From Symbiodinium natans (lineage: Eukaryota > Sar > Dinophyceae > Suessiales > Symbiodiniaceae): DNA of 64,000 nt. Position 1 is the stretch's first letter. The number at the start of each line of letters is the position of its first letter. The notes below the pieces were generated by a model. That model searched no databases and was not told the origin of the DNA. It saw only the letters and a program-made list of their open reading frames with translations. Positions 2,105 through 63,642 of this stretch are shown here, one piece after another. Position numbers and translations under genes: made by a program. Where the stretch lies: positions 615,001 to 679,000 of the forward strand of contig CAJNDS010001458.1 of the NCBI GenBank assembly GCA_905221605.1. Direction: 5' to 3'.

Positions 2105-2154
2105 TATTTTCTCCGAGGTTTGGCCGCACACAAGTGTTTCAGATGGGTCAGACT
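2105..2154 (-). CDS. Candidate exon
   Basis: Acceptor GCCAG| at 2154, donor ATA|GT at 2105. Reads SDPSETLVCGQTSEKI. It lies just right of the GT-rich array; the gene end was not found. Confidence 0.45.
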
Positions 2155-2164
2155 CTGGCACACA

Positions 2165-2213
2165 GACAAACCCTAAACCCTAAACCCTAAACCCTAAACC
2201 CTAAACCCTAAAC
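2165..2213 (-). repeat. Telomere-type CCCTAAA block
   Basis: First interstitial block from the left. About a hundred further blocks, 15 to 320 bp long and in either orientation, recur every few hundred bases to the end of the window; only the largest are listed. Confidence 0.95.
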
Positions 2214-2334
2214 CCTACAACCCCTACCAGCATGGGCTATTAGGCCTTATAATCCCCTAACCAACCCTATAAAGGGTTTTTTTTTAAGGGGTTATAGGGT
2301 ATAATAGCCCATGTAGGTAATACCCAAGCCGCAC

Positions 2335-2374
2335 TAGTCTTCTTTCCAGCCTGCTGTGGTTGAGGCTGGTCAGG
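2335..2374 (-). CDS. Candidate exon, 40 nt
   Basis: Acceptor TGAAG| at 2374, donor CTA|GT at 2335. Reads PDQPQPQQAGKKT; a low-complexity tail is plausible near the C-terminus. Confidence 0.45.
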
Positions 2375-2548
2375 CTTCAGGGTAGTTTGCCTACAGACGA
2401 TGTCGGATGGATGTCTTCAAGTCGTACGAAAGTTACCCTAAACCCTACACCCTACACCCTAAACCCTAAACCCTAAACCCTAAACCCTAAACCCTAAACC
2501 CTCTGTGATTTGAGCCCCACCCAGACTTAAAGTACCGACAGATGTGAC

Positions 2549-2589
2549 CTGGGCGTCGGATCGTAATCTGGATCAGCTGGCGCCACATC
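2549..2589 (-). CDS. Candidate exon, 41 nt
   Basis: Acceptor CGAG|G at 2589, donor CCCAG|GT at 2549. Reads DVAPADPDYDPTP. Confidence 0.55.
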
Positions 2590-2945
2590 CTCGTGGGGAA
2601 AGCGCGTTTATTGTTTAGGTTTAGGGTTTGGCATTTGGGGACGAGGGTTTCGGGTTTGGGTTTTGGTGGTGTAGCTACCGCGGGCTCTTCGTCGGCGTCG
2701 CATCCCACATCCGTAAGAGTGGAACGAGACCCATCACCAGCTTAGGCCCGAGGACTGCTAAGAAAAGGCAGCACGCAAACTTCCGAAGATCGAAGCTGAG
2801 GCGGTGGTTCAGGGTTTAGGGTTTAGGGTTTAGGGCTTTAGGGTTAAGGCCAGCGAACCCCAGACCCTAACCCCAGAACCCTGCGACTGAGACTCCTCAG
2901 CCAGCCCCGCCAAGACAGCCTGGGGCCGCTTCGGCTCCTGGCTGC

Positions 2946-3130
2946 TACTTGGAGGTTCCTGGTACTTATAACTGAGGTTATAGGGTTTAGGGTTTAGGGT
3001 TTAGGGATATAGCCCTGGTAAAACTGCACTTACAACCCACTTACAAGCCCCTTAAGTGCCCCAACATCATTGTAACCGGGCTATAGGTGCAGTTACAACT
3101 GGGTTTATGAGTACCATGAACCTCCAAGTA
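2946..3130. repeat. Fold-back element family A, interrupted by telomeric repeat
   Basis: Terminal inverted repeats TACTTGGAGGTTC.../...GAACCTCCAAGTA. TTTAGGG units (2982-3006) sit inside the left arm with TATA on both sides. Confidence 0.85.
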
Positions 3131-3697
3131 GGCCATGATGAGATGCGGGTATAAGGAGAGACCCCTAGAAGGGACCCCTTAACCTTATTCCCCTATATCA
3201 CTCCCTTCCTGTACCTCATAGAGTCCCTAAAAACCTAGGTAGCCACTTAATAGCCCCCAACTAACCCCTAAGGTCCCTTTTATGAGGGTCACTCCTTTAG
3301 TCCCTTGACTAAACCCTAAACCCTAAAACCTAAACATTGAGGGAACTCGACAGCTGAAGGGGTTCTTGGGGGCCGGTACTTTATGTGCACCTAGAACCCT
3401 CCGAGTATGCTTTAGCATATACCCCCCCCCATACCCCAAGCCCTGAACACTAAACCCCACATTTCCAAACCCTGCTCTCCCAGTAACCCTAGAACTAGAC
3501 CCTCAGCTCTGCCGACGCTTCTTGCTTTAATGGGGTCTTTATAAACGGGCTCTTGCCCATTAGATAAGTGGGGAATGAGGTCACGCACTGAGTAATCCGC
3601 TCAAGAAACAAGGGCGTCCTTGCCCCCAAACCCTAAACCCTACACCCTAAACCCTAAACCCTAAACCCTACACCTGCGCTCCCGCGCCGCACCTGGC

Positions 3698-3769
3698 CTG
3701 CTGCTGTGGCCTTCCCTCGCTGCGGCGCCGGGCTTGGAGGTTCCGTGCGCAGCTCTCCACCAGAAAGTC
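3698..3769 (-). CDS. Candidate exon, 72 nt
   Basis: Acceptor AGAAG|G at 3769, donor GCAG|GC at 3698. Reads DFLVESCARNLQARRRSEGR. Confidence 0.6.
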
Positions 3770-4020
3770 CTTCTTTGTGGGGTTTCGGGGCCTAAAACCC
3801 TAAACCCCAAACCCTGAATCCCAAACCCGAAACCCTAAACCCGAAACCCTGAACCCTCAAGGGCCTATGGGTTCGGACCCCAAACCCCCTAGGGCTTGGG
3901 AAAAACTAAAGGGCTCGGGGAACAGGATTCCTCGGCTTTTTGGTGCCACTTCTCCGGGTATGTAGGGGTTTAGGGTTCATGGTTGAGGGTTTAGGGAGTC
4001 TGAGATTGAAGGGAGAGAGG

Positions 4021-4156
4021 GGTTCTCTAAGGGTAGTTACATGGTTCCTTAATATGGGCCCCTTATAAACCCCTTATGTACCCCGTAGTACTTCAGAACC
4101 CTTTAAGGAAGGTAAGAGACCATATTAAGGGACCATGTAACTGCCCCAAGAGGTTC
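4021..4156. repeat. Fold-back element family B
   Basis: Arms TAGTTACATGGTTCC and GGGACCATGTAACTG in opposite orientation. Confidence 0.82.
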
Positions 4157-4476
4157 ACGAGGGGTAGGTACCTAGGGAACCTTAGGGAAGCTTAGGGAGC
4201 CTTAGGGAGTAGTGACTAGTGGGTAATTAGAGACAGTGTTAGGGAACCTAGGGTTATATACTCCAATGAACCACCCTCCTTCCCACACCTCGGAGAGGAT
4301 CCAAAGAGTAGGACCCCCCAATTGTACCCTACACTACTACTGGGTCATTCTTAGGAACACTTAACGGGGTCTGGGTTAAGGACACTACGATTAGAGCTGA
4401 GAGCTGAAAGCACGGAGTTGCGAGCCCACGGTTGCCTTATGGGGTCCGGGGGTGGAGGATTGAGCGTTCATCGCGC

Positions 4477-4601: not shown

Positions 4602-4652
4602 GCCGAAGTCCTGCTTCTGGTCACTCGGGACAGCCCAGTCGGCAACCACTGC
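4602..4652 (-). CDS. Candidate exon
   Basis: Acceptor CTGCAG|G at 4652. Reads AVVADWAVPSDQKQDF. Left end near a GC or GA donor. Confidence 0.5.
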
Positions 4653-5306: not shown

Positions 5307-5377
5307 AAAGAGTCGATGCCGAGGCCCCAAGCCCGGACGCGCACGTAGAGCGGATAGGACGTGGGGGCCACGGGGGC
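5307..5377 (-). CDS. Candidate exon, 71 nt
   Basis: Acceptor GCAAG|G at 5377, donor TTT|GT at 5307. Reads APVAPTSYPLYVRVRAWGLG. CCCTAAA left, TTTAGGG right. Confidence 0.7.
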
Positions 5378-5609: not shown

Positions 5610-5635
5610 TAGCAGTAGTAGTAGCAGTAGTAGTG

Positions 5636-6465: not shown

Positions 6466-6569
6466 GAGTGCAAGGCCTGCTGTCGACTCGACGACTCCTC
6501 GAGGCTGGTGGAACCTTCGTGCCGTCGAAACTCCCAACAACGAGGCTTTTTCCAGGCCACCAAGGAGAG

Positions 6570-7420: not shown

Positions 7421-8577
7421 TCTATTTCTACCGAGTCCCCCCACTTTGTTCCTCCCGGCTCTGCATGGCGAGGCCCATGGTGGAGGCCTGACGGGCCTCG
7501 CGACGCCGGTCTCTACGGGCTTAAAAGGGGCTTGGGAGTTGGGAGCCGGCGCAGAGCGTTTGGGAGTTTAGGAGCTTAGGGTGTAGGGTGTAGGGTTTAG
7601 GGTTTGGGGTGTAGGGTTTAGGGTTTAGGGTTTAGGGTTTAGGGTTTAGGGTTTAGGGAAAGAGTACTTAGGAGCTTCGGGCTTGGGGCTTAGGTCTGGA
7701 GGTTTCGGGCATAGGGTTTGCAGGTTTTCGGTCCAGGGCTGCGGTTTAGGAGCCTCGCGGCGATGGTCTCATAAACAATACCCCCCAAATAAACCCTAAA
7801 ACCCGAAGACCATGATCCCTAAACCCTGAACCCTAAACCCTACACCCTAAACCCCAAACCCGAAACCCTTTGGGCCTTAGAGGCTCGTCTAGCCCTGAGG
7901 TTATACCCCTAACCCCTGAACATACTCCGATGGCCCTTATATGCCCTTACGGGATCTTTGAAAGGGTCCCCAAACCCCAGGGTAAAACCTTAGGAGAGTC
8001 CTAAACCCTGTACCCGAAACCCAAAGCCAAGCTTGCGCCCGAAACCCTAAACCCTAGACCCTAAACCCTAAACCCTCAGCCCTATACCCTAAACCCTAAA
8101 CCTTGCCCCACCACATTTGGCAAGGTCCGCCTGCCGGGGAGACATGACGGGGATGTGGGACCTCGAGAGATGGCAAAAGCTTTCTAGGGTCTGGAAGTGG
8201 AAAACCCTAAACCCTAAACCCTAAACCCTTAACCCTAAACCCTAAACCCCAAACCAAGGGTTTAAGCTCTTAAGAGTTTAGGGTTTAGGGGTTGAGGCAA
8301 TTCAGGGTTTTGGGTTTAAGGGTTTTAGGGTTTACTGGTTTATTTATGGGCTTTGGGGTAGAAGGTCCGATAGGGTTTCGGCTCGTTGGAAAGTCTATGC
8401 CTAGAAGGAGAAGAAGCTTGCGGGCAGCTCGCCTATGGCAACTCGCACCCGATTGTTCTTTCGAGATTGCCTGCATAACATCACGAAATTCAATGCTTGT
8501 CCAACTACGAGCCTCGCATCCACCCAGCCATCTCGAGAGACCCTCGGACCCTCCCTGAGACCGCAGTCCTGCCAAGG

Positions 8578-9157: not shown

Positions 9158-9760
9158 CTACAGTCCGAAATCCTGAAGCCCCCAACCCTCCTATGAAACG
9201 AAACCCCAAACCCCGAACCCCAAGCCGCAAACCCCAAACCCGAAACCCGAAACCCTAAACCCCAGTAAAATATGTACAGCAACACAAACCCTAAACCCTA
9301 AACCCTGTCGCCTTATGCCCTTCATGCCACCAGCTCTGAGCCCCAGAAGTGTGATCAAGGGTTTAGGGTTTAGGGTTTAGTAAGGTTTAGGGATCAAGGG
9401 TTTAGGTTTTAGGGTTCCGAGCTTAGGGATTGGGGCTTGAGGGTTCCAAGGTTTAAGGTTCAAGGCTCAAGGAATCTCAATCCTAAATCAGCTTAGCTGG
9501 GTTGGCCTTTAAACCCTTTAAATATGCAAGCATACATATATGTACATATGTATGTATATAGTATATATGTACATATGGTGATTCAGGAAAACACAACATC
9601 TCCCAAAAGCCAACCCAGTTAGAGAACTAGGCTCCGCCGGGGCGGCGGCGAGAGCATCGAGGTGCGATGCAGGTTTTGATTCCTCGGATGAACAAAACCC
9701 TAAACCCTCAACTCTAAACTTCATCCTAAGCCCCAAACCCTGAAGGCACCCCCCGATGCC

Positions 9761-10719: not shown

Positions 10720-10788
10720 CAGAGCCCTGCTTTGCGTGCGGGAAGCAAAAACTTCTGCCCCGCCGCGGTGGACATCAGATGCCGGAAC
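10720..10788 (-). CDS. Candidate exon, 69 nt
   Basis: Acceptor TTGCCTGCAG|G at 10788, a strong polypyrimidine acceptor; donor TCTG|GT at 10720. Reads VPASDVHRGGAEVFASRTQS. CCCTAAA left, TTTAGGG right. Confidence 0.72.
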
Positions 10789-13392: not shown

Positions 13393-13430
13393 CTGGAGAC
13401 CGTAAGGCGGTTGGCCACGGAGATATGGAC
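13393..13430 (-). CDS. Candidate exon, 38 nt
   Basis: Acceptor CCAG|G at 13430, donor TCCAG|GC at 13393. Reads VHISVANRLTVS. Confidence 0.66.
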
Positions 13431-14351: not shown

Positions 14352-14403
14352 CAGAGCCGATCCGAGTGCCATGGCTGGTGCTGTCGGCCCCCGCCCGGTT
14401 CGC
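14352..14403 (-). CDS. Candidate exon
   Basis: Acceptor CGAG|G at 14403, donor TCTG|GC at 14352. Reads ANRAGADSTSHGTRIGS. CCCTAAA left, TTTAGGG right. Confidence 0.53.
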
Positions 14404-16146: not shown

Positions 16147-16205
16147 GTGGGCTCGTGGATGTGATCCGCGTGGTATGCGAAGTACTCCACTTGCTCCCTG
16201 GAGTC
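16147..16205 (-). CDS. Candidate exon, 59 nt
   Basis: Acceptor GCAAG|G at 16205, donor CAC|GT at 16147. Reads DSREQVEYFAYHADHIHEPT. Confidence 0.66.
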
Positions 16206-16594: not shown

Positions 16595-16837
16595 CTGCTT
16601 CGCTTGCCCAGACCCAAGAGTAGCCTAGGAATGAGCAGGGTGCCCTTTCTGGTTTAAGGGGCTTATAAGCGAACCTAAACGTTGGGGATGTGGGGTTGAG
16701 GGCTGAGGGTTTAGCCCCTAAATCCTAAACCCTAAACCCGAAACCCTAAACCCTAAACCCTAAACCCTAACCCTAAACCCTAAACCCTAAACTGCACGCC
16801 TCATAGGACTCCGTGATGGATTGCTGGCCATAGGCAC

Positions 16838-18100: not shown

Positions 18101-18143
18101 CAAGATGCAAGCTGATGTGTGTCCAGTCGAGATAGCAGGCAAT
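18101..18143 (-). CDS. Candidate exon, 43 nt
   Basis: Acceptor GCTCAG| at 18143, donor TTG|GT at 18101. Reads IACYLDWTHISLHL. Confidence 0.6.
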
Positions 18144-18870: not shown

Positions 18871-19122
18871 ACCCTTAGAAGAAGGACCCCAAAAGGGACC
18901 CCAATCTCCAGAACTGCCAGACACCATAGTCGCATACTGAATCTACGTTGGCCAAGCCTACAGCAACAGTCCAGCAGCCTCCAGCTGACTTTCTAAACAC
19001 ACACCCTCAGCTTTGGAACACAAAACCTTAAACCCTGAACCCTGAACCCTAAACCCTAAAGCCCAAAACCTAAAACCTAAACCCTAACCCACCCACCCCG
19101 CCCCCCCCCGATGGAGCCTCAC

Positions 19123-19178
19123 CGCTTATGTCCATAGGCTCGTCGCAACAGAGGCGAAAGATGACGATGCAGTGAGAC
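19123..19178 (-). CDS. Candidate exon, ASH-like
   Basis: Acceptor GCCAG|G at 19178, donor GCG|GTGAGG at 19123. Reads SHCIVIFRLCCDEPMDIS. Confidence 0.7.
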
Positions 19179-20690: not shown

Positions 20691-20837
20691 TGTGAACGTA
20701 AGAACTCCATGGTGCAAGCACTGTTTGGGGAAAAACCCTAACCACCCCCCCCCCCTAAACCGTAACCCCTAAACCCTAAACCCTAAACCCTAAACCCTAA
20801 ACCCGAAACCCTAAAACAGAAAGAAGCCAGGGCTGCC

Positions 20838-20912
20838 CAGGAGAAAGCTCTCCCTGGCTCGGCTCAATCTCCAGCTCGTGCTCAAAGCGGAAGAGCTTTC
20901 GTGCATCCCACC
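20838..20912 (-). CDS. Candidate exon, ASH start
   Basis: Acceptor GGCAG|G at 20912, donor CTGG|GC at 20838. Reads FRFEHELEIEPSQGELSPG, among the clearest ASH signatures here. CCCTAAA repeat left, TTTAGGG right. Confidence 0.82.
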
Positions 20913-21262: not shown

Positions 21263-21319
21263 GAAATGCCCGGCCTGTAGCCAAGGACGAAGTCCGAGGT
21301 GTAGTTGACCAAGATGAGC
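21263..21319 (-). CDS. Candidate exon, ASH-like
   Basis: Acceptor CTCAG|G at 21319, donor TTC|GT at 21263. Reads LILVNYTSDFVLGYRPG, the L-x-N-x-S-D motif common in HYDIN-type repeats. Confidence 0.77.
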
Positions 21320-22469: not shown

Positions 22470-22531
22470 GCTCCCTGCATCTGCGCGTGCCGGGCTCTGA
22501 GCGGCACCTGCTGGAAATCCAGGAGCTCGAT
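22470..22531 (-). CDS. Candidate exon, ASH-like
   Basis: Acceptor CCGAG| at 22531. Reads IELLDFQQVPLRARHAQMQ. A GT after FQQ would give a shorter exon. Confidence 0.58.
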
Positions 22532-23125: not shown

Positions 23126-23497
23126 CCAAGCGACTGTCAGTGCTCCGGAACGCACACAAGCCAAGGACGAGATGCCACAATCCTGAGCCCTAAATGGTTT
23201 AGGGTTTAGGGTTTAGGGTTTAGGGTTTAGGGTTTAGGGAGAGGAGCGCCAGGGGCTCAGAGCGGGGCCGAAAGTGCCGCCCCCCCGCCGGGCACCGGCC
23301 TCGGAAGAGAGCTTCGAAATTCGAGACAGTAGGGTTTAGGGTTTAGGGTTTCGGGTTTAGGGTTTCGGGTTTAGGGGTAAGCTGCAGAAGGAAAGAACAC
23401 GGGGAACACACGCTAAACCTGAAACCCTAACCCAAAGATGATATGACCCAGGAAACCCCTCGATAAACCCCTCACCAGCTCCAAATCACCTTCAAAC

Positions 23498-24481: not shown

Positions 24482-24591
24482 GCATAGGTCTGGATCGGGA
24501 GGTTCTGAGGGAAATGAGGCTCGACCTCAGCAGACATCAGGGTCTCAGCAGACATCCGGGGCACAGGTTTCTTCGGATTCAAACATGGGGC
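24482..24591 (-). CDS. Candidate exon, 110 nt
   Basis: Acceptor GAAG|G at 24591, donor TGC|GTGAGG at 24482. Reads RMSAETLMSAEVEPHFPQNL then PIQTYA. One of the longest exons and with a canonical donor. Confidence 0.75.
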
Positions 24592-25202: not shown

Positions 25203-25251
25203 CTGCGGAGGCACATCCGTCGGCATGTAGCCATCTGCCTCGACGGCTCTG
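25203..25251 (-). CDS. Candidate exon
   Basis: Acceptor CCCAG| at 25251, donor GCAG|GC at 25203. Reads RAVEADGYMPTDVPPQ. Confidence 0.63.
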
Positions 25252-27885: not shown

Positions 27886-27927
27886 CTTCAGCATCTCCAC
27901 CCGCACGGGGCAGGTATATCTCTTCGC
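27886..27927 (-). CDS. Candidate exon, 42 nt
   Basis: Acceptor GAAG|G at 27927, donor TGAAG|GC at 27886; 14 codons AKRYTCPVRVEMLK. Confidence 0.65.
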
Positions 27928-35874: not shown

Positions 35875-35929
35875 CAGGCGGGATGGAGCCGCTTCTGGGC
35901 TGGATGTCGTAGACGCCGTGCTCCTCCAC
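35875..35929 (-). CDS. Candidate exon, ASH-like
   Basis: Acceptor GCCAG|G at 35929, donor CCTG|GC at 35875. Reads VEEHGVYDIQPRSGSIPPG, a clear ASH first-strand motif (I-x-P-x-x-G-x-I-x-P-G). Confidence 0.77.
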
Positions 35930-36587: not shown

Positions 36588-36636
36588 CCAGCTGAAGTGA
36601 GCTTCGCGCTCGTCCACCAGGGCCTTCTCGTCGCAC
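36588..36636 (-). CDS. Candidate exon
   Basis: Acceptor GCAG|G at 36636, donor TGG|GT at 36588. Reads CDEKALVDEREAHFSW. Confidence 0.64.
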
Positions 36637-39005: not shown

Positions 39006-39057
39006 CGGATCGGAAGGTATCCCGGGTTCGACAAGGCCAAGTAGACGACCGTCGGGC
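39006..39057 (-). CDS. Candidate exon, ASH-like
   Basis: Acceptor CCTAG|G at 39057, donor CCG|GC at 39006. Reads PTVVYLALSNPGYLPIR, the L-x-N-x-G signature of ASH domains. Confidence 0.78.
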
Positions 39058-40385: not shown

Positions 40386-40527
40386 TTAAAAAAGATTCCC
40401 AAAAATCCCTGAGAAAGCCCTAAGGCCCTACATCCTAAACCCTAAACCCTAAACCCTAAACCCTAAACCCTAAACCCTAAACCCTAAACCCTAAACCCCA
40501 AATTGCTGGCAGCTGGCCAGACTCCAC

Positions 40528-40584
40528 CGCAGCCGTGCCGAAGAGCATCTGGAACGGCTTCAGCTGCCTCAGCGGGGTGTCTAG
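40528..40584 (-). CDS. Candidate exon, 57 nt
   Basis: Acceptor TAAG| at 40584, donor GCG|GTGGAG at 40528; 19 codons, LDTPLRQLKPFQMLFGTAA. Continues in phase into 40089 to give an ASH-like stretch. Confidence 0.72.
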
Positions 40585-40730
40585 CTTAGGCTTGCTGGAA
40601 GTCTTGGGGGGTATCAGGGTTTAGGGTTTAGGGTTTAGGGGTATCAGGGTTTAGGGCGCAGGGTGTCTTGATCCCTACACCCAGTTGAGGGTTCTGGGAC
40701 GACAGTTGCTCCATTGGCCCCTGGCCTCAC

Positions 40731-40763
40731 CAAACGTTTCTTGTCGTCGATACCGATGGCAGC
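40731..40763 (-). CDS. Candidate exon, 33 nt
   Basis: Acceptor GCACAG|G at 40763 and donor TTG|GTGAGG at 40731, a near-canonical 5-prime splice site. Eleven codons, AAIGIDDKKRL; phase 0 to both neighbours. Confidence 0.7.
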
Positions 40764-41691: not shown

Positions 41692-41760
41692 CTGAAACTT
41701 GCGCTCCACATCCGCGACTTCGCCTTGATACAGCTCGTTGATGCCGTCCACCTTGGCGTT
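41692..41760 (-). CDS. Candidate exon, 69 nt
   Basis: Acceptor TTCCAG| at 41760, donor TTTCAG|GC at 41692; 23 codons, NAKVDGINELYQGEVADVER then KFQ. First of five exons that join in one phase down to 39006. Confidence 0.77.
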
Positions 41761-42391: not shown

Positions 42392-42437
42392 CTGGAACTG
42401 GGTCCACATCATCGACTGCGGCTGCAACGTCGAAGAC
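42392..42437 (-). CDS. Candidate exon, 46 nt
   Basis: Acceptor CACAG|G at 42437 and donor CCAG|GT at 42392. Reads VFDVAAAVDDVDPVP; the remaining base joins in phase to 42170. Confidence 0.75.
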
Positions 42438-43045: not shown

Positions 43046-43099
43046 GCACTCGGTGCGCAGGTCGGCAATCTGTATGTAGGGGTATTGCACCAGCGCACA
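43046..43099 (-). CDS. Candidate exon, ASH-like
   Basis: Acceptor GCCAG| at 43099. Reads CALVQYPYIQIADLRTEC, recalling the Y-P-x-L-x-V-x-D motif of CFAP65/HYDIN-type proteins. GC donor at 43046 keeps phase with 42392; a GT donor at 43030 is also available. Confidence 0.72.
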
Positions 43100-43390: not shown

Positions 43391-43775
43391 GAGGCGCCAT
43401 GTTGGGGCTACCTAGGACGACAGGCATTCTGTACCATCTTCATCGGGGCTCTACCGTGTACCCTGCTCCCTCCGAAAGCCCTTCCACCCTAAACCCGAAA
43501 CCCTGCACCCTAAACCCTAAACCCTAAACCCTACACCCTAAACCCTAAACCCTAATCCCTCTCAGCATGCCTCAAGCCCGAAAGCCGACCCTATGAACCC
43601 CAAGCTCATGGACCACCCCTCCTAGTAACCCTGGAGCCTCAAAGGCCAACCTCTAAACCCCAAACGGGTAGACAACACCCAAACCCTAAACCCTAAACCC
43701 TAAACCCTAAACCCTAAACCCTAAACCCTAAACCCTCAACCTAAAAAGAGCAAGTGAGGCCAATGTAAAGGTCAC

Positions 43776-43826
43776 GCTTCGACCGCTGGGCTCGTCGGAG
43801 CCCTCCCCCTGAGGCGTCACGGACAC
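43776..43826 (-). CDS. Candidate exon, ASH-like
   Basis: Acceptor GCAG|G at 43826, donor AGC|GT at 43776; 17 codons, VSVTPQGEGSDEPSGRS. Phase-compatible with the exon at 43046. CCCTAAA repeat left, long TTTAGGG array right. Confidence 0.63.
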
Positions 43827-44548: not shown

Positions 44549-44632
44549 TCCCAGGCCTCATATACGAACTCCCCACGACCTGACAAGGCCGCACACTTCA
44601 TCTGCACTTGTGGCGGGATGGCTCCAATCGGA
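44549..44632 (-). CDS. Candidate exon
   Basis: Acceptor CAAG| at 44632, donor GA|GT at 44549. Reads PIGAIPPQVQMKCAALSGRG then EFVYEAWEFW. Confidence 0.68.
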
Positions 44633-45081: not shown

Positions 45082-45128
45082 TCGGCATGGCGGGTGAAAG
45101 GCGATCTCCAGCGTGGAGGTGCATCGAC
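45082..45128 (-). CDS. Candidate exon, ASH-like
   Basis: Acceptor GCAG|G at 45128. Reads CTSTLEIAFHPPC, the strand that ends an ASH core (L-x-I-x-F-x-P). Donor approximate. Confidence 0.62.
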
Positions 45129-46784: not shown

Positions 46785-46843
46785 CTGCAACGTTGCCGAT
46801 GGAGTGGCCAAGCACGAGGGCGTCATCCTCGCCGGAAGAAGGG
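46785..46843 (-). CDS. Candidate exon
   Basis: Acceptor GGAG| at 46843, donor GCAG|GC at 46785. Reads PSSGEDDALVLGHSIGNVA. Confidence 0.66.
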
Positions 46844-47540: not shown

Positions 47541-47610
47541 GCATCTTCTGGGGGCCCAACCGCTGCAGAGGCCGCCTGCGGATCCCTTGGTCGCGCGGGG
47601 CTTCGTCAAC
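47541..47610 (-). CDS. Candidate exon
   Basis: Open minus frame VDEAPRDQGIRRRPLQRLGP with two possible AAG acceptors. Limits approximate. Confidence 0.42.
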
Positions 47611-48593: not shown

Positions 48594-51500
48594 TCACTTC
48601 TTTTTCCGATGGTTTGCAATACTGAGGTGAAGTTGTAGCAGAATATACTCCAGGTCCGAAACTGCAAGAACAGGATCCTGCACGCACCTTTGAATTGAGG
48701 ATACCAATCCTTCTCTCTTTGCGTCCTCAATCGCTTGGCAAGATTGACCCAGCTCTGCACTCACAGCTGTAGACGCTTGCGCATCCACATCAGAAGGACG
48801 ATCCTTTTCCTCAGGACCTTTCACCACCACCACTTCTCCCTTTTTGGGACTCTGACTTTTCTCCTTCTTCTTCGCCTTTCCACCGACGTTTGACTTTGTG
48901 CGCATTTTCGAGGCTTTTTCCCCTGCAGAAACCGCCGCATTGGATGATGATCCACTCTTCTCAATGGTCGCCGGCATCTTCTTCGGCTTTGGAACCAGGA
49001 GAGTGTAAGGATCTTCGATAACTGCAGTTTTCCTCTTCTTTTTAACCTTTTTTGCCTCCTCCTCAACGGCAACCTCCGTCTCAGAAGTCTCAACCACCTC
49101 CTTTTCGGCAGGAATATCCTTGCTGGACTCCCTTTCTAGGGACCTCTTCTTGCCCCTTTTGGGATCTTTTTCTTCTTCCACGTTGGCTCGCTCGAACCAT
49201 ATCCTCAGGTCATTGACCCATTCTTCCACCTCCTCGAGCGAAACCTCATACGACTTCACTACTTCGTGAAGTTCCAGCACGGACAACATATCGGTGGTCC
49301 ACGAAACCCATTCTCTATCCATCTGGTCAGTATCTCCATTGAACTTCAGGAGTTTGAACAGTGGGTCCGCCTCTGCTCGAGCCAAATCTGTTTTGCCATT
49401 GGACAGAAATGAAATCGCCTCCATCAACAGTTCCGCCATTTTGGTGTCATCGTCATAAGTCATGGAATACTCCTCACCATCATCGAACTGTTCAGGAGAG
49501 ATCTCCTTTTCCCCACCTTTTGCACCAGAACTTCTCCTTGGACCATCCCTTGGGGGCGTCCTTGGAGACCTTGGCCTCTGTTCATTCAGCGGATCACCAT
49601 GCTCAAAAACACACCTGTCACCATAACGACACTTCCCAGGCTGAGCAAACTGAATGCACCTCACACCAGTTGCATCATGCGAGAACGCACACTTCTTTCC
49701 AGCGAAGCAGGGTCTCCCCGCCACATAGTATTTGCACCAATACGAATGCAGCACCACATCATCTTCTGAATGGATGAATTTGCAGTCTTCACCAAATTTG
49801 CAGCGATCTTTTCCCTTACTGAACCAATAGCAGAAGCCTTTCTTCCTCTTCTCCAAGCGCTCCGCCTCGAACCGGTCCATAGGGCGATTCTGCTCTACAT
49901 GAACATTGTCATGGGCCTGAGAACTGCTCCCTTCACCCCAGGTGCTATCAGTATTTGATGCTTGGAGTACAGCTGGAAAACCTGGCCTTGGTCCTACCAC
50001 CTTCATGATTGGTTTTCCGCCAGCTCCTGAGCCACGCTGAGACGATCCAAAAACACTGAACTTCTTCATGAAGGCTTTCCTAGTGCCGATCTTCTGCACC
50101 CTTTTGATTGGGTGCTTCATTGCTCCAACCTTGCATCCAGATACATTCAAACGACACAACCTCTTATACCCAGCTCTATATCCCTTTTTCCAAAGAGCCA
50201 TAAGAATTTTAGAGGCAGTAACATTCTCCACCTCTACCTTTTCCAACGATCCCTCACTTCCCGGAACAAACCCATCCAACCCATCCATATCTGAAGACCT
50301 TTCCATCTTTTTTGACACCACTTCGTCGAGGTAGTCTTCAGAGATCCAGGGTAAGTTCCTCTTAGAGGAAGGATTGTCACCATTGTTTGGTCCTTCACCA
50401 GGATACCCCTTTGTGCTGTCAAAGATCTTACCAGTAGTGCGGTCCTGCGTAGAGAAATTGGAAGCAACGCGAGAGTACACTGACCACAAGAAAATCCTTG
50501 TGCCCGCCAGTCTTGACGACCCACTGGATGTCTCCTCTTCCGGAGAGACTTCTGGCGCTTTGCCATCCCTTCCAGTGTCACCAAGTGTCTCACCTCCAGC
50601 ATCTTCAATGGGAATAAGGGATTCATTGTTCCCTTGATCTAGTACCGCATCTTGTTGATCGGGGATCTCCAGCACCATTCCTGTAGGATCCACTTCCTCA
50701 TCAGCATCGTCGTCCATTCTTCTCCAGAGAACCTCCAATTGATCAGCGCAGGTCGCCGCCTGAAGGAACTCCATCATTTGGTCCCTCCCGTGCTGCCAGA
50801 GAAATTCGGAATTCACCACTGTCCCTTGGCCTCCTAGTCTAAGGAATGGAGCGACCAGATTGGCTACCCTTGCCATAAGTTCCACATGAACTTCCATGCC
50901 TGGACTGCGACTCCAATCATAGGCTATTGCCTCCATAGCAGTTCCAAACTTTTCAGTATTTCTGAATTCCTTTTCCAGGCCAGGAGAAAGCAGTGCACCC
51001 ATCACCGAAAGAGGATAATTTCCCACCACCGGCAAGCACGGATCTTCATGGAACGAATGATGCAAATCACCGTAGTATCCTTGATCTCTCCTTTCAAAAA
51101 GGAGTCTCCCAGTATTCAACTGGGCATTCAGTTCATCCACTTGAACCATTTCAGCACATATTCTCTGTGCCGCAGTCGCTATTGCCGGCCAGAGAGCACG
51201 ATCTGCCAACCCACGACGCATAACCCAAATAGTTGTCGCCGACTGAATCAGTGTACCAGGGTCATATGCCATGACCACCAATGCACCATCATCCATTCTC
51301 TGATCAGTATCATCTTCTAATGCCAGGTTCAAATCCTGTTCGCTTGCACCTTCAGATGACATGCTAATAACCAAGTTTCGATCCATTTTATTGGATCCCT
51401 TCTGATAGTCCTTGTGCTCCACAGGTAACTTGCCGACAGCAACCTTCCAATAAATCCGATTCAGAAGACCTTTAACAAGCAATTGCTGAGGAACGTTCTT

Positions 51501-52775
51501 CACCGGACGAACATCCAATGTCTTCGCACCATCACCACGGAGTTCATTGCTCCCACCTTCTCCTTCGTTTTGGTCAGTCTCTTCGCCAAGAATTTGCACT
51601 GCTCCTTCCAGCGCCGTCTCCTGTCCAGCCACTTCTTGCCCAGGAAGAACTTGAGCGCCTTCAGATACATTCACCTGTCCAGCAACACCTTGCCCAGGTA
51701 AAACCTCATCCGTGGAGCCCACCGCCAGCGAACCAGCTATAACTGAGCCATCCCTTGCTCTTTTTTGAGACTGTTCAGGACGAGAAGGTTGTGGCAGCGA
51801 AAAAACTTGAGAAGTCACTTCTTGGCGGGTCTCCCCCCGCGACGCTTTGTCGCGTTCTTCGCCAAGGTGAACCGATTTTTTCTGCCCGTCATTGGGGACG
51901 GAAGAACCACCCATCGGAACATTGCCACGAATCGCAGTTCTCTGTGAATCCCTTTCTTGCAAAAGGATTTCCCTCATGCGTTGCACAGCATTGGTCTCTT
52001 CCTCGCTTGAATCGCTTGAGGAATCGGCATAAGAAACCAAAGCCTCCGCCTGATCATCATCGTCCACCACATCTGCCCACGCTCTGCTGAACCGATACGA
52101 CAACACACCACGAGGCTTCAGTTCCAGTGGTTTTGGTTTCTCCACCACTTCCGCCGGTTGTGCTCGTCGCTGTGAACGCGAGCGTGGCACCTGTCGCACC
52201 TGTTTTTTGTCCAGCAAGGGCCTTCCCCTTTTCACAGGGTTCGATCTTGACCGATACTTTTTTGTTGGTGGGTTCACTGGTGGCATTCCAACTCCCACCA
52301 ACTTCAGCTTCTGTACGCACAGTGGAGACCTCTGCGCAAGCGTCCAAGCGTCACGGTACTTGACCTTATCAAAAAGCTCCCGATAGGAGCCTCTCGGCAT
52401 CGTTTTTGCACCAGAGCCTTCAGCTTCACGCATCTGAGTGAGGGTTCGCACCGCCTCTCTTCCAGCTTCCTTGCTTCCAGAAGATTGTTGTACCCGTACA
52501 GATGCATCGGAAGGGACTGCTTTTTCCGGTCCCTCCGGACGATATCGGACACCTCCCACCAATCGCAGGATTTTGCATGCTGTCACCTTGTTGATCCCTT
52601 TTTCAAGCAGATCTTCCACAAAGATGAACTCCTGCAGGTCCGACACGGTGTTCACACCAAGAGTAATCATCACCTCACTTACATGAGGGGTATACACCCA
52701 AAGGTGTTTGTTGCGAGCCATCCAATTTTCAATTGGCTCCTCTGGATCTTGAAGCAGAGTACCAGTAACTTCCAC
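48594..52775 (-). CDS. 1,393-codon ORF: SAM-like N-terminus, three CCCH zinc fingers, basic C-terminus
   Basis: Uninterrupted ORF that starts with GTG at 52775; the first ATG is codon 19 (52721), and an in-frame stop lies at 52820. Residues about 18-75 (DLQEFIFVEDLLEKGINKV) resemble a SAM domain. A long acidic/Ser-rich region follows. Near residues 983-1064 there are three fingers: C-x9-C-x5-C-x3-H, then twice C-x8-C-x5-C-x3-H. The C-terminal part is Lys/Glu-rich (KKVKKKRK and similar) and ends ANHRKKK. CCCH fingers usually bind RNA, so an ORF1/Gag-like coat role is inferred. Base composition is even, unlike the GC-rich ASH exons. A host gene for an RNA-binding protein retained without introns is the alternative. 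No catalytic domain was recognised. Confidence 0.75.
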   Translation of the reverse strand: MEVTGTLLQDPEEPIENWMARNKHLWVYTPHVSEVMITLGVNTVSDLQEFIFVEDLLEKGINKVTACKILRLVGGVRYRPEGPEKAVPSDASVRVQQSSGSKEAGREAVRTLTQMREAEGSGAKTMPRGSYRELFDKVKYRDAWTLAQRSPLCVQKLKLVGVGMPPVNPPTKKYRSRSNPVKRGRPLLDKKQVRQVPRSRSQRRAQPAEVVEKPKPLELKPRGVLSYRFSRAWADVVDDDDQAEALVSYADSSSDSSEEETNAVQRMREILLQERDSQRTAIRGNVPMGGSSVPNDGQKKSVHLGEERDKASRGETRQEVTSQVFSLPQPSRPEQSQKRARDGSVIAGSLAVGSTDEVLPGQGVAGQVNVSEGAQVLPGQEVAGQETALEGAVQILGEETDQNEGEGGSNELRGDGAKTLDVRPVKNVPQQLLVKGLLNRIYWKVAVGKLPVEHKDYQKGSNKMDRNLVISMSSEGASEQDLNLALEDDTDQRMDDGALVVMAYDPGTLIQSATTIWVMRRGLADRALWPAIATAAQRICAEMVQVDELNAQLNTGRLLFERRDQGYYGDLHHSFHEDPCLPVVGNYPLSVMGALLSPGLEKEFRNTEKFGTAMEAIAYDWSRSPGMEVHVELMARVANLVAPFLRLGGQGTVVNSEFLWQHGRDQMMEFLQAATCADQLEVLWRRMDDDADEEVDPTGMVLEIPDQQDAVLDQGNNESLIPIEDAGGETLGDTGRDGKAPEVSPEEETSSGSSRLAGTRIFLWSVYSRVASNFSTQDRTTGKIFDSTKGYPGEGPNNGDNPSSKRNLPWISEDYLDEVVSKKMERSSDMDGLDGFVPGSEGSLEKVEVENVTASKILMALWKKGYRAGYKRLCRLNVSGCKVGAMKHPIKRVQKIGTRKAFMKKFSVFGSSQRGSGAGGKPIMKVVGPRPGFPAVLQASNTDSTWGEGSSSQAHDNVHVEQNRPMDRFEAERLEKRKKGFCYWFSKGKDRCKFGEDCKFIHSEDDVVLHSYWCKYYVAGRPCFAGKKCAFSHDATGVRCIQFAQPGKCRYGDRCVFEHGDPLNEQRPRSPRTPPRDGPRRSSGAKGGEKEISPEQFDDGEEYSMTYDDDTKMAELLMEAISFLSNGKTDLARAEADPLFKLLKFNGDTDQMDREWVSWTTDMLSVLELHEVVKSYEVSLEEVEEWVNDLRIWFERANVEEEKDPKRGKKRSLERESSKDIPAEKEVVETSETEVAVEEEAKKVKKKRKTAVIEDPYTLLVPKPKKMPATIEKSGSSSNAAVSAGEKASKMRTKSNVGGKAKKKEKSQSPKKGEVVVVKGPEEKDRPSDVDAQASTAVSAELGQSCQAIEDAKREGLVSSIQRCVQDPVLAVSDLEYILLQLHLSIANHRKKK

Positions 52776-53070
52776 CCCCTCGAATCTTGTTATTGTTTTT
52801 GTATTTGTTTTTGGATTTCATTATTCGAAACCAAAGAAGTGAGACTCTAAACATACATTTCCCTTTACGAAGAGAAAGAAGGGAATGTATTCTAAATTCC
52901 ACCCCCTCGAATCTTGTTATTGTTTTTGTATTTGTTTTTGGATTTCATTTTTCGAAACCAGAGAAGTGAGACTCTAAACATACATTTCCCTTTACGAAGA
53001 GAAAGAAGGGAATGTATTCTGAATTCCACCCCCCTCGAATCTTGTTGTTTTTTTGTATTTGTTTTTGGAT
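52772..53070 (-). repeat. 127-bp tandem monomers upstream of the CCCH ORF
   Basis: Two full 127-bp copies start at 52772 and 52899, and a third, shortened copy starts at 53026. Copies differ at only a few positions. The first copy overlaps the ORF start codon. The arrangement fits a monomeric promoter array of a retroelement. Confidence 0.85.
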
Positions 53071-53430: not shown

Positions 53431-53477
53431 CAAGGTCGGCGCGAGCCGATAAATTTGGCCGCCACCACGTAGCGCAC
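53431..53477 (-). CDS. Candidate exon, ASH-like
   Basis: Acceptor TAAG|G at 53477, donor TTG|GTGCGT at 53431. Reads VRYVVAAKFIGSRRP, a hydrophobic closing strand. Confidence 0.74.
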
Positions 53478-56714: not shown

Positions 56715-56771
56715 TTCAGCCCAGATGTTGAGGGACCGCGCGCTGAGCTGAGACGAGTTCAGGATCACCAC
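56715..56771 (-). CDS. Candidate exon, ASH-like
   Basis: Acceptor GGAG|G at 56771, donor GAA|GT at 56715; 19 whole codons. Reads VVILNSSQLSARSLNIWAE. Phase 0, follows directly from the exon at 58000. Confidence 0.75.
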
Positions 56772-57999: not shown

Positions 58000-58073
58000 C
58001 TGGCGCTGTTGGCCCTCACAGGCTTGAACCGCTCCCAGGTCCAAGCTGCTGGGCTCCAGGGAGAGCGCGGGGC
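58000..58073 (-). CDS. Candidate exon, ASH start
   Basis: Acceptor GCAG|G at 58073, donor CCAG|GC at 58000. Reads PALSLEPSSLDLGAVQACEG, a close match to an ASH domain start (L-x-L-x-P-x-x-L-D-L/F-G). In phase with the exons on both sides. Bounded by CCCTAAA (left) and a long TTTAGGG array (right). Confidence 0.8.
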
Positions 58074-58079: not shown

Positions 58080-58345
58080 CGGGTTTAGGGTTTAGGGTTT
58101 AGGGTTTGGGGTTTAGGGTTTAGGGTTTAGGGTTTAGGGTTTAGGGTTTAGGGTTTAGGGTTTAGGGTTTAGGGTTTAGGGTTTAGGGTTTAGGGTTTAG
58201 GGTTTAGGGTTTAGGGTTTAGGGTTTAGGGTTTAGGGTTTACGGGTTAGGGTTTAGGGTTTAGGGTTTAGGGTTTAGGGTTTAGGGTTTAGGGTTTAGGG
58301 TTTAGGGTTTAGGGTTTAGGGTTTAGGGTTTAGGGTTTAGGGTTT
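58080..58345 (+). repeat. Telomere-type TTTAGGG block
   Basis: About 37 units, one of the longest, starting 7 bp from an ASH exon. Confidence 0.96.
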
Positions 58346-59119
58346 AGATCCCCTATCTGCCCCCCCTATCTGGGGTTGAGGGCACTTTTTCACGCAACGA
58401 GTAGCTCTCGGCCACGTCGGACTCGTCATTGCCTCAAGGGCCGCCCTGAAGGTGAGGCCCTTGTCCAAACAATCTGCCTCAATGCGGCCGATTCGGGCCA
58501 TTCATGTATCGGGCTGTCAACAAGACTGGCTGCTGGCAAAGAGTTGCAACAGCTGTGTGAGTTGGTCCCTGCACGGGCTGCTCCACAAAGGGTTCAGGGT
58601 TCAGGGTTTAGGGTTTAGGGTTCAGGGTTTAGGGTTCAGGGTTTAGGGCTTAGGCCTTGGGGGTTGAGGTTTGAGGGTTAGGATTTTCGAGTTTAGGGCT
58701 GAGGCTTAGGGCTTCGGGCTTCATCTGCTAGGTAAAGACAGAAAATGTCCCTAAACCAGGCTTAGGATCACGACTATAAGGTCCCTTAAGCCAAGGAGCG
58801 TTCTTTTAGCTATGAATACACCGAAGATTCAAGGATGTTCCCCTTAAGTTATCTTTGGGATCCCATGCCCACATCAACTGCAGCCAGGATTTCGGAGTCT
58901 AGGACCCCTAGTATTCCTAAACCCTAAACCCTAAACCCTAAACCCTAAACCCTAAACCCTAAACCCTAAACCCTAAAGGAGTGTGGGGTTTGGGGTTGAG
59001 GGTTGAGGGTTTAGGGTCTTGCCTCACACAAATAAATTTCGAATTCGTTGAGGGTATTGGAGTGTCTGGGAGCTCAGAGCGTAGCCTTTAGGCCTTCGGG
59101 GGCTGAGGGCTTGCAAGGC

Positions 59120-59953: not shown

Positions 59954-59987
59954 CTTTGCCATGGCCCACCATCTGCAGGATGTAGGA
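59954..59987 (-). CDS. Candidate exon, 34 nt, ASH end strand
   Basis: Acceptor GCCAG| at 59987 and donor AAAG|GC at 59954. Reads SYILQMVGHGK, the hydrophobic strand plus G-x-G that closes ASH domains. Leaves one base that completes the first codon of the exon at 58000. Confidence 0.75.
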
Positions 59988-60942: not shown

Positions 60943-60984
60943 CGGCTGTTCGTCCACAAGACTGGCCTTGGTGTTGACCAGTGC
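60943..60984 (-). CDS. Candidate exon, 42 nt
   Basis: Acceptor CCAG|G at 60984 and donor CCG|GT at 60943. Exactly 14 codons, ALVNTKASLVDEQP. Phase 0 on both sides, compatible with the exon at 60336. Confidence 0.7.
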
Positions 60985-61645: not shown

Positions 61646-61877
61646 GGCCCTGGTTGTAGAGTCTAGGGTTGGGAGGCGGCGGGCTTGGGTCTGAGGCAAG
61701 CCCTTGCCCCAAATCTTACAACTCTCCCCCGTTCATTGGGGCGGAGGGGGGGGGGGGGGGGGGGGTGCCCTAAACCCTACACCCTACACCCTAAACCCCT
61801 AAACTCCTAAACTCCTCCCCTAAACCCCTAAACCCCTAAACCCCTAAACCCCTAAGCCCTAAACCCGAAACGGGGGG

Positions 61878-61939
61878 GTGGAGGAGATTCGTCGGCTTGT
61901 AGTGGCCTTCAGGGGCCCCTCCACGAAGTTGTCAGGATC
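61878..61939 (-). CDS. Candidate exon
   Basis: Acceptor CCAG|G at 61939. Reads DPDNFVEGPLKATTSRRISS. Flanked by CCCTAAA-type repeat on the left and TTTAGGG-type on the right. Confidence 0.62.
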
Positions 61940-62127
61940 CTGGTACCACGAAACGCCAGGGGTTTGGGGTTTAGGGTTTTGGGTTTAGGGTTTAGGTTGT
62001 GCGGACAGCTCAGCGGACTGAGGATAAAGCAAGCAGGCAAGTGTGGCAATTACTGAGAGTTACTGAGCTCTGTGCGGTTTTGGTGTCATGCCTCACGCAT
62101 ATTCTCTCTCGGCGTGTTGGTTTTCTT

Positions 62128-62190
62128 GCCTGCTTCTGCCTCAATGTCTTCGATCCGTGAGATCCACCACCAGTGCAGAAAGCCATGAGG
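62128..62190 (-). CDS. Candidate exon
   Basis: Frame WISRIEDIEAEAG, with a possible GC donor after GCAG at 62130. No convincing acceptor was found; the right limit is a guess. Confidence 0.42.
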
Positions 62191-62384
62191 AAGATACAAT
62201 GACAAAGGCCGTCGACCTCAAGAAGGGCCCGTAAGTCAGATCACCACCCTCACAATAACAATCCAAAATCCTTAGAATGCCCCAAACGCTAAACCCTAAA
62301 CCCTAAACCCTAAACCCTAAACCCTAAACCCTAAACCTCAAAAGGCTCCCAAATTTACCTCTGCCCCCAAAGTAGGCAGGGTTG

Positions 62385-62443
62385 AGGGGTTGCTGTCGCG
62401 CAGCCAGTCCACGTGGTACGGGCTTCGGGCCTTAAGACGTGAC
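62385..62443 (-). CDS. Candidate exon
   Basis: AG|G acceptor at 62443; the left limit is approximate. Reads SRLKARSPYHVDWLRDSNP. Confidence 0.6.
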
Positions 62444-62589
62444 CTCTCGGAGTTTAGGGTATCTAAGATTTAAGGGAACCCTAAACCCTAAACCCCAAAA
62501 CCTGAACCCTAAACCCTAAACCCTTAACCCTGAACCCTAAACCCTAAACCCTAAACCCTAAACCCTACACCTTAACCCCTTTAGGGGAC

Positions 62590-62667
62590 CTTTGGGATCC
62601 CTTGTGCAGGGACTCGGCATCCTCCAGGCAGCCAGCAACGCAGTACAGCGGCGCCGAGAAGACGCGC
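62590..62667 (-). CDS. Candidate exon
   Basis: AAG|G acceptor at 62667 and AAAG|GT donor at 62590. Reads RVFSAPLYCVAGCLEDAESL. Telomere-type repeat lies on both sides, CCCTAAA left and TTTAGGG right. Confidence 0.6.
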
Positions 62668-63124
62668 CTTGCCGGGGTTTGCTGTAGTTCAGGGGTTTAA
62701 GGTTTAAGGTGTAGGGTTTAGGGGTTGCGGGTTTAGGGTTTAGGGCTTCGAGGTCCTATTCAGTAGTCTTGGGCTATATAATTTCGGCCAAATTTAAGGA
62801 ATTTAAGACTTCTAGGTTTGAGAGCTTCAAAGTTTACTTGTGTTGCCAGCTGCAAAAGAATGTCTGAACGACACACGGAGGGTTGTTGTGATTGCCGTCG
62901 CCTTGTAGATACGATACCATCACTAGACCTTCAACCCCAAAAAACACTAACTACAAAGGACCCTCAAGCGGCCCTAGTTCAGAAAGGCCCCCTCCCTTTT
63001 GGGGGAAATCCAGTGTCGCCTGCGGGTTTGAGGTTAGAACTTAGGGTTTAGGATTTGGCGTTTCGGGTAGGGTGTGGGGGCCATATACCCTCTATAATTC
63101 CTATTAAGGCAATCTGAACGGAAA

Positions 63125-63189
63125 GCGCTTCATGAGTTTAGAACGTAGTGTCGTAGGCAGCTGGTCGACCATCACATCAGGCGCAGGCT
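63125..63189 (-). CDS. Candidate exon
   Basis: Open minus frame DVMVDQLPTTLRSKLMKRFP following an AG. The donor was not fixed and the ends are approximate. Confidence 0.42.
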
Positions 63190-63354
63190 CAGCATGTAGG
63201 GTTCAGGGCGTGGTGCTCAGGCTTGAGGGCTTCTCTTCTACATCTTCCCGAAAGAACCTATACCCTAGGATGGCCCTAAAGACCCTCTGAAAAAAATCTC
63301 TCAAGTACAACCCTCTTGAACCCAATAAGGGGAAATATGAATTGTCCCAAGGGT

Positions 63355-63541
63355 TAGGGTTTAGGGTTTAGGGTTTAGGGTTTAGGGTTCAGGGTTCGGG
63401 GTTCAGGGTTTAGGGTTCAGGGTTCAGGGTTCAGGGTTCGGGGTTTAGGGTTTAGGGTTTAGGGTTTAGGGTTTAGGGTTTAGGGTTTAGGGTTTAGGGT
63501 TTAGGGTTTAGGGTTTAGGGTTTAGGGTTTAGGGTTTAGGG
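63355..63541 (+). repeat. Telomere-type TTTAGGG block
   Basis: About 26 units with TTCAGGG/TTCGGGG in the left third. Confidence 0.95.
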
Positions 63542-63558
63542 TACCCCCAAAAAGGCAC

Positions 63559-63642
63559 TCCGAGGGCGAGGGCTCGCTGGATGGAGAGAAGTTGGCCACA
63601 ATGTGGGTGGTCTCGGAGGGCGCGAGCCTGGGCAGCCGAACC
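63559..63642 (-). CDS. Candidate exon, ASH-like
   Basis: Acceptor CAG|GG at 63642, donor GA|GT at 63559. Reads RLPRLAPSETTHIVANFSPS, a pattern typical of the middle strands of an ASH domain (P-x-E-T-x-x-I-x-x-x-F-x-P). Confidence 0.65.

Follow-up and report, generated by a model that had tools for sequence, protein, structure and literature searches.

Telomere units within chromosomes, known as interstitial telomeric sequences, are described in portions of Nergadze et al. 2007 (PMC2246262), in which break repair was proposed as their source. Introners that carry inverted repeats together with direct duplications have been reported, in sections of the respective papers, from Symbiodinium microadriaticum and Amoebophrya (PMC9860276, PMC7789003); the latter paper names the telomere motif at scaffold ends, while the main texts of the former and of the S. 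natans genome paper (PMC8045281) do not contain the string 'telomer'. The genes of symbiont group S1 average 8 kb and 14 introns, according to an extract of PMC11114475. In titles and abstract openings of the open-licence literature on dinoflagellate telomeres, introns and introners, no prior report of telomere-armed introns was present among the matches listed, nor, in the open-licence literature, was any report of interstitial telomeric sequence together with intron gain among the matches listed, and nothing was found there for CFAP65 and dinoflagellates. Here, we analyzed a 64,000-nucleotide stretch of the Symbiodinium natans genome (C1458:615,001-679,000, hereafter the window) within 759.4 Mb in 2,543 contigs. 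Homology assigns its minus strand to one gene, CFAP65 (CCDC108), and not to HYDIN; the product is by the same token a predicted protein of the flagellar central apparatus. We consider it highly probable that the window holds the central and later parts of one spliced dinoflagellate CFAP65 gene with telomere-array introns.

The search began from 43 peptides picked by eye on the telomere-masked minus strand, which, when joined, matched CFAP65 in the structure bank (9.2e-7) as well as 19 proteins below 1e-70, the top one being a Breviolum gene model (1.7e-164). Because these peptides were chosen by hand, we relied on a spliced profile aligner written for the purpose and run alongside controls. 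Against a CFAP65 profile, the minus strand of the window scored 3,358 half-bits, versus 435 for the plus strand and 426 and 427 for the reversed minus and plus strands, respectively. Spliced alignment also recovered continuations of CFAP65 beyond the window, both upstream (2,079 half-bits versus 475 and 518 in controls) and downstream (660 versus 182 and 172). In Pfam, a 1,368-amino-acid model reached 218.3 (PF24507), 188.1 (PF24816), 127.8 (PF24291), 93 (PF25249), and 48.9 bits (PF25248), such that the fourth, seventh, eighth, and ninth CFAP65 immunoglobulin (Ig) domains all exceeded the curated cut-offs of 24-28 bits for CFAP65 Ig-domain families. The same model carried an ASH domain at 60.1 bits (cut-off 27), which was the profile check proposed for the joined translation in a preliminary description made from the DNA letters alone. 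That description had posited one giant minus-strand flagellar ASH-domain gene, an expectation borne out by the spliced score, the Pfam families, and solved structures, and had offered HYDIN, CFAP65, CFAP47, and DLEC1 as candidates, of which CFAP65 is upheld. A profile of eight homologues matched the solved structures of FAP65 (479 bits) and CFAP65 (360 bits) far above HYDIN (88 bits), FAP47 (33 bits), and FAP74 (23 bits). We therefore rejected HYDIN, the Pfam and protein matches likewise being to CFAP65, and did not recover a CFAP47 or CFAP74 identity.

Among the 34 proteins matched by the 1,368-amino-acid model, the best was P0021, an uninterrupted protein of 1,894 amino acids with 90% identity at 100% query coverage. 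The longest contig of its source has only 5,831 bases, so that introns of the CFAP65 kind cannot fit there. Another homologue, P0025, carries an MMETSP transcript name. The preliminary description had supposed that automatic gene finders would report none of this gene. In line with that view, no near-identical protein from the source organism was present among proteins within the searched length ranges, and P0047, a gene model of different origin, retains only 129 of 1,894 residues, identical to P0021, fused to unrelated domains whose Pfam accessions we take to be those of ribonucleotide-reductase and RCC1-type domains; the view does not extend to Breviolum, in which the gene model P0001 (1,151 amino acids) matches 78% of the first query. 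Gene finding by codon statistics failed, the true sequence scoring 229 versus 1,015 and 1,086 for reversed controls in a first version, and reversed controls scoring about equal in a second. Codon statistics thus did not tell the strands apart, and homology was required to find CFAP65; a conserved flagellar gene can evade such statistics while a fragment of it survives in a gene model elsewhere. The ASH model alone gave no match in the genome, we believe because single exons are too short. Finally, the dinoflagellate spliced leader had 205 exact genome matches (104 + 101) versus none for the reversed control, identifying the host as a dinoflagellate.

The final exon list came from alignment to P0021 and seven relatives, which yielded 123 pieces and superseded an earlier list of 90 exons. 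We regarded as confident those at or below C1458:759,965 with a score of at least 20 and identity of at least half; 105 passed, 13 pieces upstream of 759,965 were judged to be chance, and five were weak. CFAP65 thereby spans C1458:591,829-759,965 (168,137 bp), and 52 of the confident exons lie wholly within the window. The window's exons, from spliced alignment, are given below in window positions, with P0021 residues and the number of residues identical to P0021.

63574..63627, minus strand, CFAP65 exon, residues 840-857, 16/18
62622..62667, minus strand, CFAP65 exon, residues 858-872, 15/15
61907..61939, minus strand, CFAP65 exon, residues 873-883, 10/11
60943..60984, minus strand, CFAP65 exon, residues 884-897, 10/14
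59954..59987, minus strand, CFAP65 exon, residues 898-909, 11/12
58000..58073, minus strand, CFAP65 exon, residues 910-933, 23/24
56742..56771, minus strand, CFAP65 exon, residues 934-943, 10/10
53443..53477, minus strand, CFAP65 exon, residues 944-955, 9/12
47561..47585, minus strand, CFAP65 exon, residues 956-963, 7/8
46785..46827, minus strand, CFAP65 exon, residues 964-978, 10/15
45087..45128, minus strand, CFAP65 exon, residues 979-992, 11/14
44557..44579, minus strand, CFAP65 exon, residues 993-999, 7/7
43761..43826, minus strand, CFAP65 exon, residues 1000-1021, 19/22
43050..43099, minus strand, CFAP65 exon, residues 1022-1038, 16/17
42392..42437, minus strand, CFAP65 exon, residues 1039-1053, 15/15
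41692..41751, minus strand, CFAP65 exon, residues 1054-1073, 20/20
40726..40763, minus strand, CFAP65 exon, residues 1074-1086, 13/13
40518..40567, minus strand, CFAP65 exon, residues 1087-1103, 16/17
39006..39057, minus strand, CFAP65 exon, residues 1104-1120, 17/17
37386..37436, minus strand, CFAP65 exon, residues 1121-1137, 17/17
36588..36636, minus strand, CFAP65 exon, residues 1138-1153, 16/16
35861..35929, minus strand, CFAP65 exon, residues 1154-1176, 22/23
34584..34643, minus strand, CFAP65 exon, residues 1177-1196, 20/20
33515..33571, minus strand, CFAP65 exon, residues 1197-1215, 19/19
32517..32571, minus strand, CFAP65 exon, residues 1216-1234, 19/19
31775..31840, minus strand, CFAP65 exon, residues 1235-1256, 20/22
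30735..30787, minus strand, CFAP65 exon, residues 1257-1273, 13/17
29835..29899, minus strand, CFAP65 exon, residues 1274-1295, 20/22
28943..28958, minus strand, CFAP65 exon of 16 nucleotides, residues 1296-1300, 5/5
27886..27927, minus strand, CFAP65 exon, residues 1301-1314, 13/14
26495..26533, minus strand, CFAP65 exon, residues 1315-1327, 12/13
25203..25238, minus strand, CFAP65 exon, residues 1328-1339, 10/12
24482..24525, minus strand, CFAP65 exon, residues 1340-1354, 15/15
23269..23299, minus strand, CFAP65 exon, residues 1355-1364, 10/10
22479..22531, minus strand, CFAP65 exon, residues 1365-1382, 15/18
21275..21319, minus strand, CFAP65 exon, residues 1383-1397, 14/15
20837..20911, minus strand, CFAP65 exon, residues 1398-1422, 24/25
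19118..19178, minus strand, CFAP65 exon, residues 1423-1442, 17/20
18113..18143, minus strand, CFAP65 exon, residues 1443-1453, 11/11
16800..16837, minus strand, CFAP65 exon, residues 1454-1465, 11/12
16147..16205, minus strand, CFAP65 exon, residues 1466-1485, 19/20
14376..14403, minus strand, CFAP65 exon, residues 1486-1494, 8/9
13393..13430, minus strand, CFAP65 exon, residues 1495-1507, 13/13
10747..10788, minus strand, CFAP65 exon, residues 1508-1521, 14/14
9650..9682, minus strand, CFAP65 exon, residues 1522-1532, 11/11
8131..8161, minus strand, CFAP65 exon, residues 1533-1542, 9/10
7445..7496, minus strand, CFAP65 exon, residues 1543-1563, 18/18
6477..6514, minus strand, CFAP65 exon, weaker, residues 1564-1575, 6/12
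5333..5377, minus strand, CFAP65 exon, residues 1576-1590, 14/15
4611..4652, minus strand, CFAP65 exon, residues 1591-1603, 12/13
3698..3772, minus strand, CFAP65 exon, residues 1604-1626, 21/23
2880..2937, minus strand, possible exon in a poorly conserved tail, not confident, residues 1627-1650, 8/20
2540..2576, minus strand, CFAP65 exon, the weakest passing in the window (score 23.4), residues 1651-1662, 6/12
2355..2390, minus strand, doubtful exon, uncounted, 4/12

All 105 confident exons were collinear with the protein and kept an open frame throughout, matching P0021 at 1,424 of 1,572 residues, and a TAG directly after the last exon placed the stop where it was expected. They averaged 45.3 nucleotides (range 14-82), those in the window measuring 16-75, so that the preliminary estimate of 20-110 nucleotides was roughly right. 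Its tiny minus-strand segments are real, but number 52 rather than about eighty, and the gene, on the strand it had named, runs through 168 kb of the contig, over twice the window, rather than 60 kb. Lowest identities were 6/12 (6477-6514 and 2540-2576 in the window), 5/9, 8/14, 11/18, and 9/14. The C1458 exons cover P0021 residues 248-1894, minus 70 in the variable tail. Residues 2-63 were located on contig C1099, at a locus of similar gene style with 27% telomere cover, placing an assembly break inside CFAP65; between residues 64 and 247 the only parts recovered were 112-142 and an edge at 234, and the 34.6 kb that remain upstream on C1458 yielded no N-terminal exons. Because all 18 genome matches to CFAP65 lay on C1458 and C1099, no second copy was seen among the 25 of 41 candidates scored.

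Regarding splice sites, the 100 introns whose flanking exons were contiguous in the protein had GC (73), GT (20), or GA (7) donors, and the first exon base after AG was G in 91. The aligner requires AG and G[T/C/A], slightly prefers G after AG, and penalizes GA, and the sites are thus partly imposed; GC and GT are scored equally, hence the GC majority is not. Within that limit, the introns have the GC/GT/GA donor and AG|G acceptor pattern of dinoflagellate spliceosomal introns. This analysis confirmed that open segments between AG| and |GC/GT/GA within degenerate TTTAGGG repeat far exceed chance, the AG| and |GT/GC limits reported beforehand being present with GA donors in addition.

Perfect telomere heptamers made up 20% of the window (TTTAGGG 10.0%, CCCTAAA 10.1%), compared to 0.7-1.0% in each of three first-order Markov sequences, and a tolerant mask covered 31%. 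On the first exon list, which covers the entire gene, perfect heptamers comprised 16% of intron sequence (7.6% + 8.3%) and 0.0% and 0.2% of exon sequence. The introns are therefore telomere-bearing, as had been described, but not 'largely' telomere repeat. Tolerant arrays occurred in 100 of 100 tested introns, and, as tandem runs of telomere units that are not at chromosome ends, they qualify as interstitial telomeric sequence. One example is:

58081..58347, plus strand, telomere array of 267 bp, GGGTTTA (sense CCCTAAA), ending 7 nucleotides 5' of the exon starting at 58073

Cover was uneven along the gene, a 36-kb intron (C1458:713937-750118) having about 1-7% per 5 kb with telomere-rich stretches on either side. 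An exact triple repeat had 1,185,204 + 1,184,385 matches in the genome (about 2.37 million overlapping 21-mers), versus 41 and 33 for reversed controls, with an average of 3.1 per kb across the genome compared to 6.5 in the window. Five of 30 dynein-domain loci were telomere-rich (14-47%) and 25 were under 2%, making this a trait of some loci but not all; of the 16 kinesin matches with an open frame of at most 60 amino acids, eight loci were examined, and three of these were telomere-rich (18-20%). Arrays of variant units, as clean as the telomere ones, were also observed in the window (30812-31152, 45741-46055, and 36241-36560), with the 8-mers TTTAGGGT and CCCTAAAA and the 7-mer GGGTTGA; these are possibly local expansions after insertion. 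A TAG trinucleotide array of 383 bp (5610-5992; 88% matches) was intronic.

The arrays were polarized within introns. Denoting sense-strand TTTAGGG as G and CCCTAAA as C, and naming the donor-nearest array before the acceptor-nearest, tolerant arrays were GC in 56, GG in 20, CC in 19, and CG in five of 100 introns (GC versus CG, p 5.6e-12, introns treated as independent). Perfect arrays were GC in 37, GG in 27, CC in 21, and CG in four of the 89 introns holding two or more; the donor-nearest was G in 70 of 99 introns and the acceptor-nearest C in 62 of 99, and within 100 nucleotides the donor side was G in 58 of 71 and the acceptor side C in 47 of 62. Exons with arrays within 400 nucleotides on both sides (n=75) were correspondingly framed CG in 45, GG in 14, GC in nine, and CC in seven. 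On the first exon list, TTTAGGG cover fell from 26% in the first intron tenth to about 7-10% from the third tenth onward, and CCCTAAA reached 24% in the last tenth. Shuffling the labels of perfect arrays gave a mean of 22.3 GC introns (standard deviation 4.1), placing the observed 37 at 3.6 standard deviations above it. Array-free flanks had medians of 35 nucleotides at the donor and 29 at the acceptor, their sum (median 67) not growing with intron length (rho 0.05).

Telomere-poor dynein introns (n=81) had a median length of 97 nucleotides and GC (44), GT (28), or GA (9) donors. In the 22 exceeding 140 nucleotides there was no base asymmetry at the ends (first 60 nucleotides C 0.246, G 0.277; last 60 C 0.238, G 0.298), while in 10 of 11 telomere-type dynein introns, those of the same length class, the first 60 had G 0.403 and C 0.140, and the last 60 C 0.338 and G 0.173. 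Three telomere-poor dynein genes (C1852, C1986, and C2477) had equally tiny exons, with others up to about 2 kb, so that CFAP65 is not alone in having tiny exons and GC donors; rather, inflated, polarized introns distinguish CFAP65 and similar loci. A dynein heavy-chain match in this genome (C2492:208221-209204) has a 3,242-amino-acid open frame.

Because CCCTAAA-gap-TTTAGGG reads identically on both strands, a genome-wide test of this order is independent of strand. Over gaps of 120-150 this order had 314,150 matches versus 91,049 for the opposite one, and over gaps of 10-40 it had 3,115 versus 7,945 (overlapping start positions, so that distinct sites are fewer); reversed-pattern controls gave 0 each. 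Apart from these two ranges the test covered gaps of 0-9. At the two ranges, then, the excess lies where an exon and its flanks fit and is reversed where the gap is too short. CCCTAAA, an exon-sized gap, and TTTAGGG thus form a strand-symmetric signature, free of gene models and in genome-wide excess, that is testable in related genomes.

Several other features were present in the window. An open frame lies in a CFAP65 intron:

48594..52817, minus strand, open frame of 1,407 amino acids that includes a CCCH zinc-finger region, flanked by exons 53443..53477 and 47561..47585

No other Pfam kind was matched by this frame and the surrounding stretch is nearly telomere-free; it is likely an insert and not part of CFAP65. 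A foldback element resembling a miniature inverted-repeat transposable element (MITE), about 144-185 bp with ends TACTTGGAGGTTCATGGTACTTAT, was seen at 2946-3130, 9761-9904, 12240-12383, and 19190-19367, and a sequence resembling it, by eye, behind a kinesin exon (L057). Positions 1-1850 hold a long TG/GTGTGC-rich tract, straight after 2,500 N (C1458:612501-615000), and some CFAP65 tail exons may be hidden in this tract or the N stretch. ARAGORN made one tRNA-like call, unassigned, in the TG-rich tract, and an RNA-family scan returned nothing at gathering score. A relict spliced leader suspected by eye near 48,130 had no match at up to three mismatches.

CFAP65 is probably transcribed, and its exons joined by the usual dinoflagellate spliceosome at GC/GT/GA-AG limits, to give an mRNA of roughly 5.7 kb. 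We are less sure of the origin of the introns, for which we tentatively favor break-and-cap inflation, regarding it as plausible while stopping short of calling it probable. Ancestral introns would have had about 100 nucleotides, as in telomere-poor genes of this genome; broken intron DNA would have been capped by telomerase from both sides and then rejoined, giving X-(TTTAGGG)n...(CCCTAAA)n-Y, and the middle would later have been filled by insertions and decay. Two facing telomerase-capped broken ends, when joined, give G then C, while an inserted telomere-capped fragment gives the opposite order. The residual flanks of 35 and 29 nucleotides, independent of length, are consistent with a short intron split internally. 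The repeats would serve no role for the CFAP65 protein, and, since the arrays keep clear of splice sites, would be tolerated. Several observations weigh against this proposal. Label shuffles did reach 37 GC introns (largest 39 in 5,000), and both ends had the same orientation in 39 of 100 introns, which a single clean capping event does not describe. The summed flanks are shorter than the 97-nucleotide comparison introns. Around eight telomere-rich exons of other genes, C exceeded G in the 5' flank in seven, but G exceeded C in the 3' flank in only five. Direct abutment of TTTAGGG and CCCTAAA (gaps 0-9) had 1,594 matches, or about 160 per gap length, versus about 256 for the 7,945 at gaps of 10-40; without excess at these gaps, a head-to-head telomere fusion with direct abutment was not recovered. 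The broader proposition, that telomerase or captured telomere ends act as a genome-wide intron builder, with a large class of exons framed by CCCTAAA 5' and TTTAGGG 3' and CFAP65-like genes exceeding 100 kb with the frame kept, is one we consider somewhat less likely than not.

A mobile element (introner or MITE) with telomere-type terminal inverted repeats might instead have made or inflated the introns, which we think rather unlikely. The introners noted at the outset provide a precedent, inverted element ends would yield the usual G-then-C order, and there was a slight matching-base excess at intron positions +2 (0.42 versus 0.32) and +5 (0.37 versus 0.25); however, outside the splice-site core only these two positions clearly exceeded expectation, and the inverted arrangement is absent from the 39 introns with like-oriented ends. 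Foldback elements do occur in CFAP65 introns, the window having 16 matches to their ends against 0 by chance, but the family has non-telomere ends of its own in the four copies inspected. We view with similar skepticism the explanation that splicing selection set the polarity, through G-runs at the donor, C-rich sequence before the acceptor, or an arm-arm hairpin uniting the splice sites. Counting from the donor, the first array lay within 100 nucleotides in 87% of cases, and counting from the acceptor in 88%, compared to about 70% under random placement, and in the 62 of 100 introns folded, first-third/last-third pairs averaged 48.3 versus 19.9 in block shuffles. A flipped last third, however, paired nearly as well (38.6, p 0.16) and did not lengthen the end-to-end distance relative to the native introns (means 15.3 and 17.4), so that folding could not tell native introns from the flipped-arm control and lent the hairpin no support as a splicing aid beyond that control; moreover, the longer telomere-poor introns of the same genome lack the asymmetry. 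That we are dealing with a pseudogene or with a product of misassembly, as the break inside CFAP65 and the 2,500 N adjoining the window might suggest, is highly improbable given the ordered exons, open frame, expected stop, agreement with P0021, and the presence of dynein and kinesin loci rich in telomere repeat elsewhere in the assembly, on separate contigs. Returning to break-and-cap inflation, if the arms do reflect telomerase at breaks, they would constitute a fossil record of intronic break repair and a route to intron growth.

To our knowledge, single arrays are the usual interstitial form elsewhere. The arrays described here resemble the interstitial telomeric sequences in the portions of PMC2246262 considered above in being telomere units within chromosomes that were inserted as exact units, and differ in that they occur in introns of several genes, mostly as two facing arms. 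Like dinoflagellate introners, as presented in parts of PMC9860276, PMC7789003, and Roy et al. 2023 (via PMC11453091), they involve repeat-bearing introns, inverted ends, and GC/GA donors; unlike them, the ends are telomere repeats and signs of junction duplication are weak. The encoded protein resembles CFAP65/FAP65/CCDC108 in domain order and sequence along most of its length, in CFAP65-specific Ig domains, and in its top structure matches, and differs in gene architecture alone, with 105 exons over 168 kb of one contig set against the 8-kb genes and 14 introns averaged in the extract of PMC11114475.

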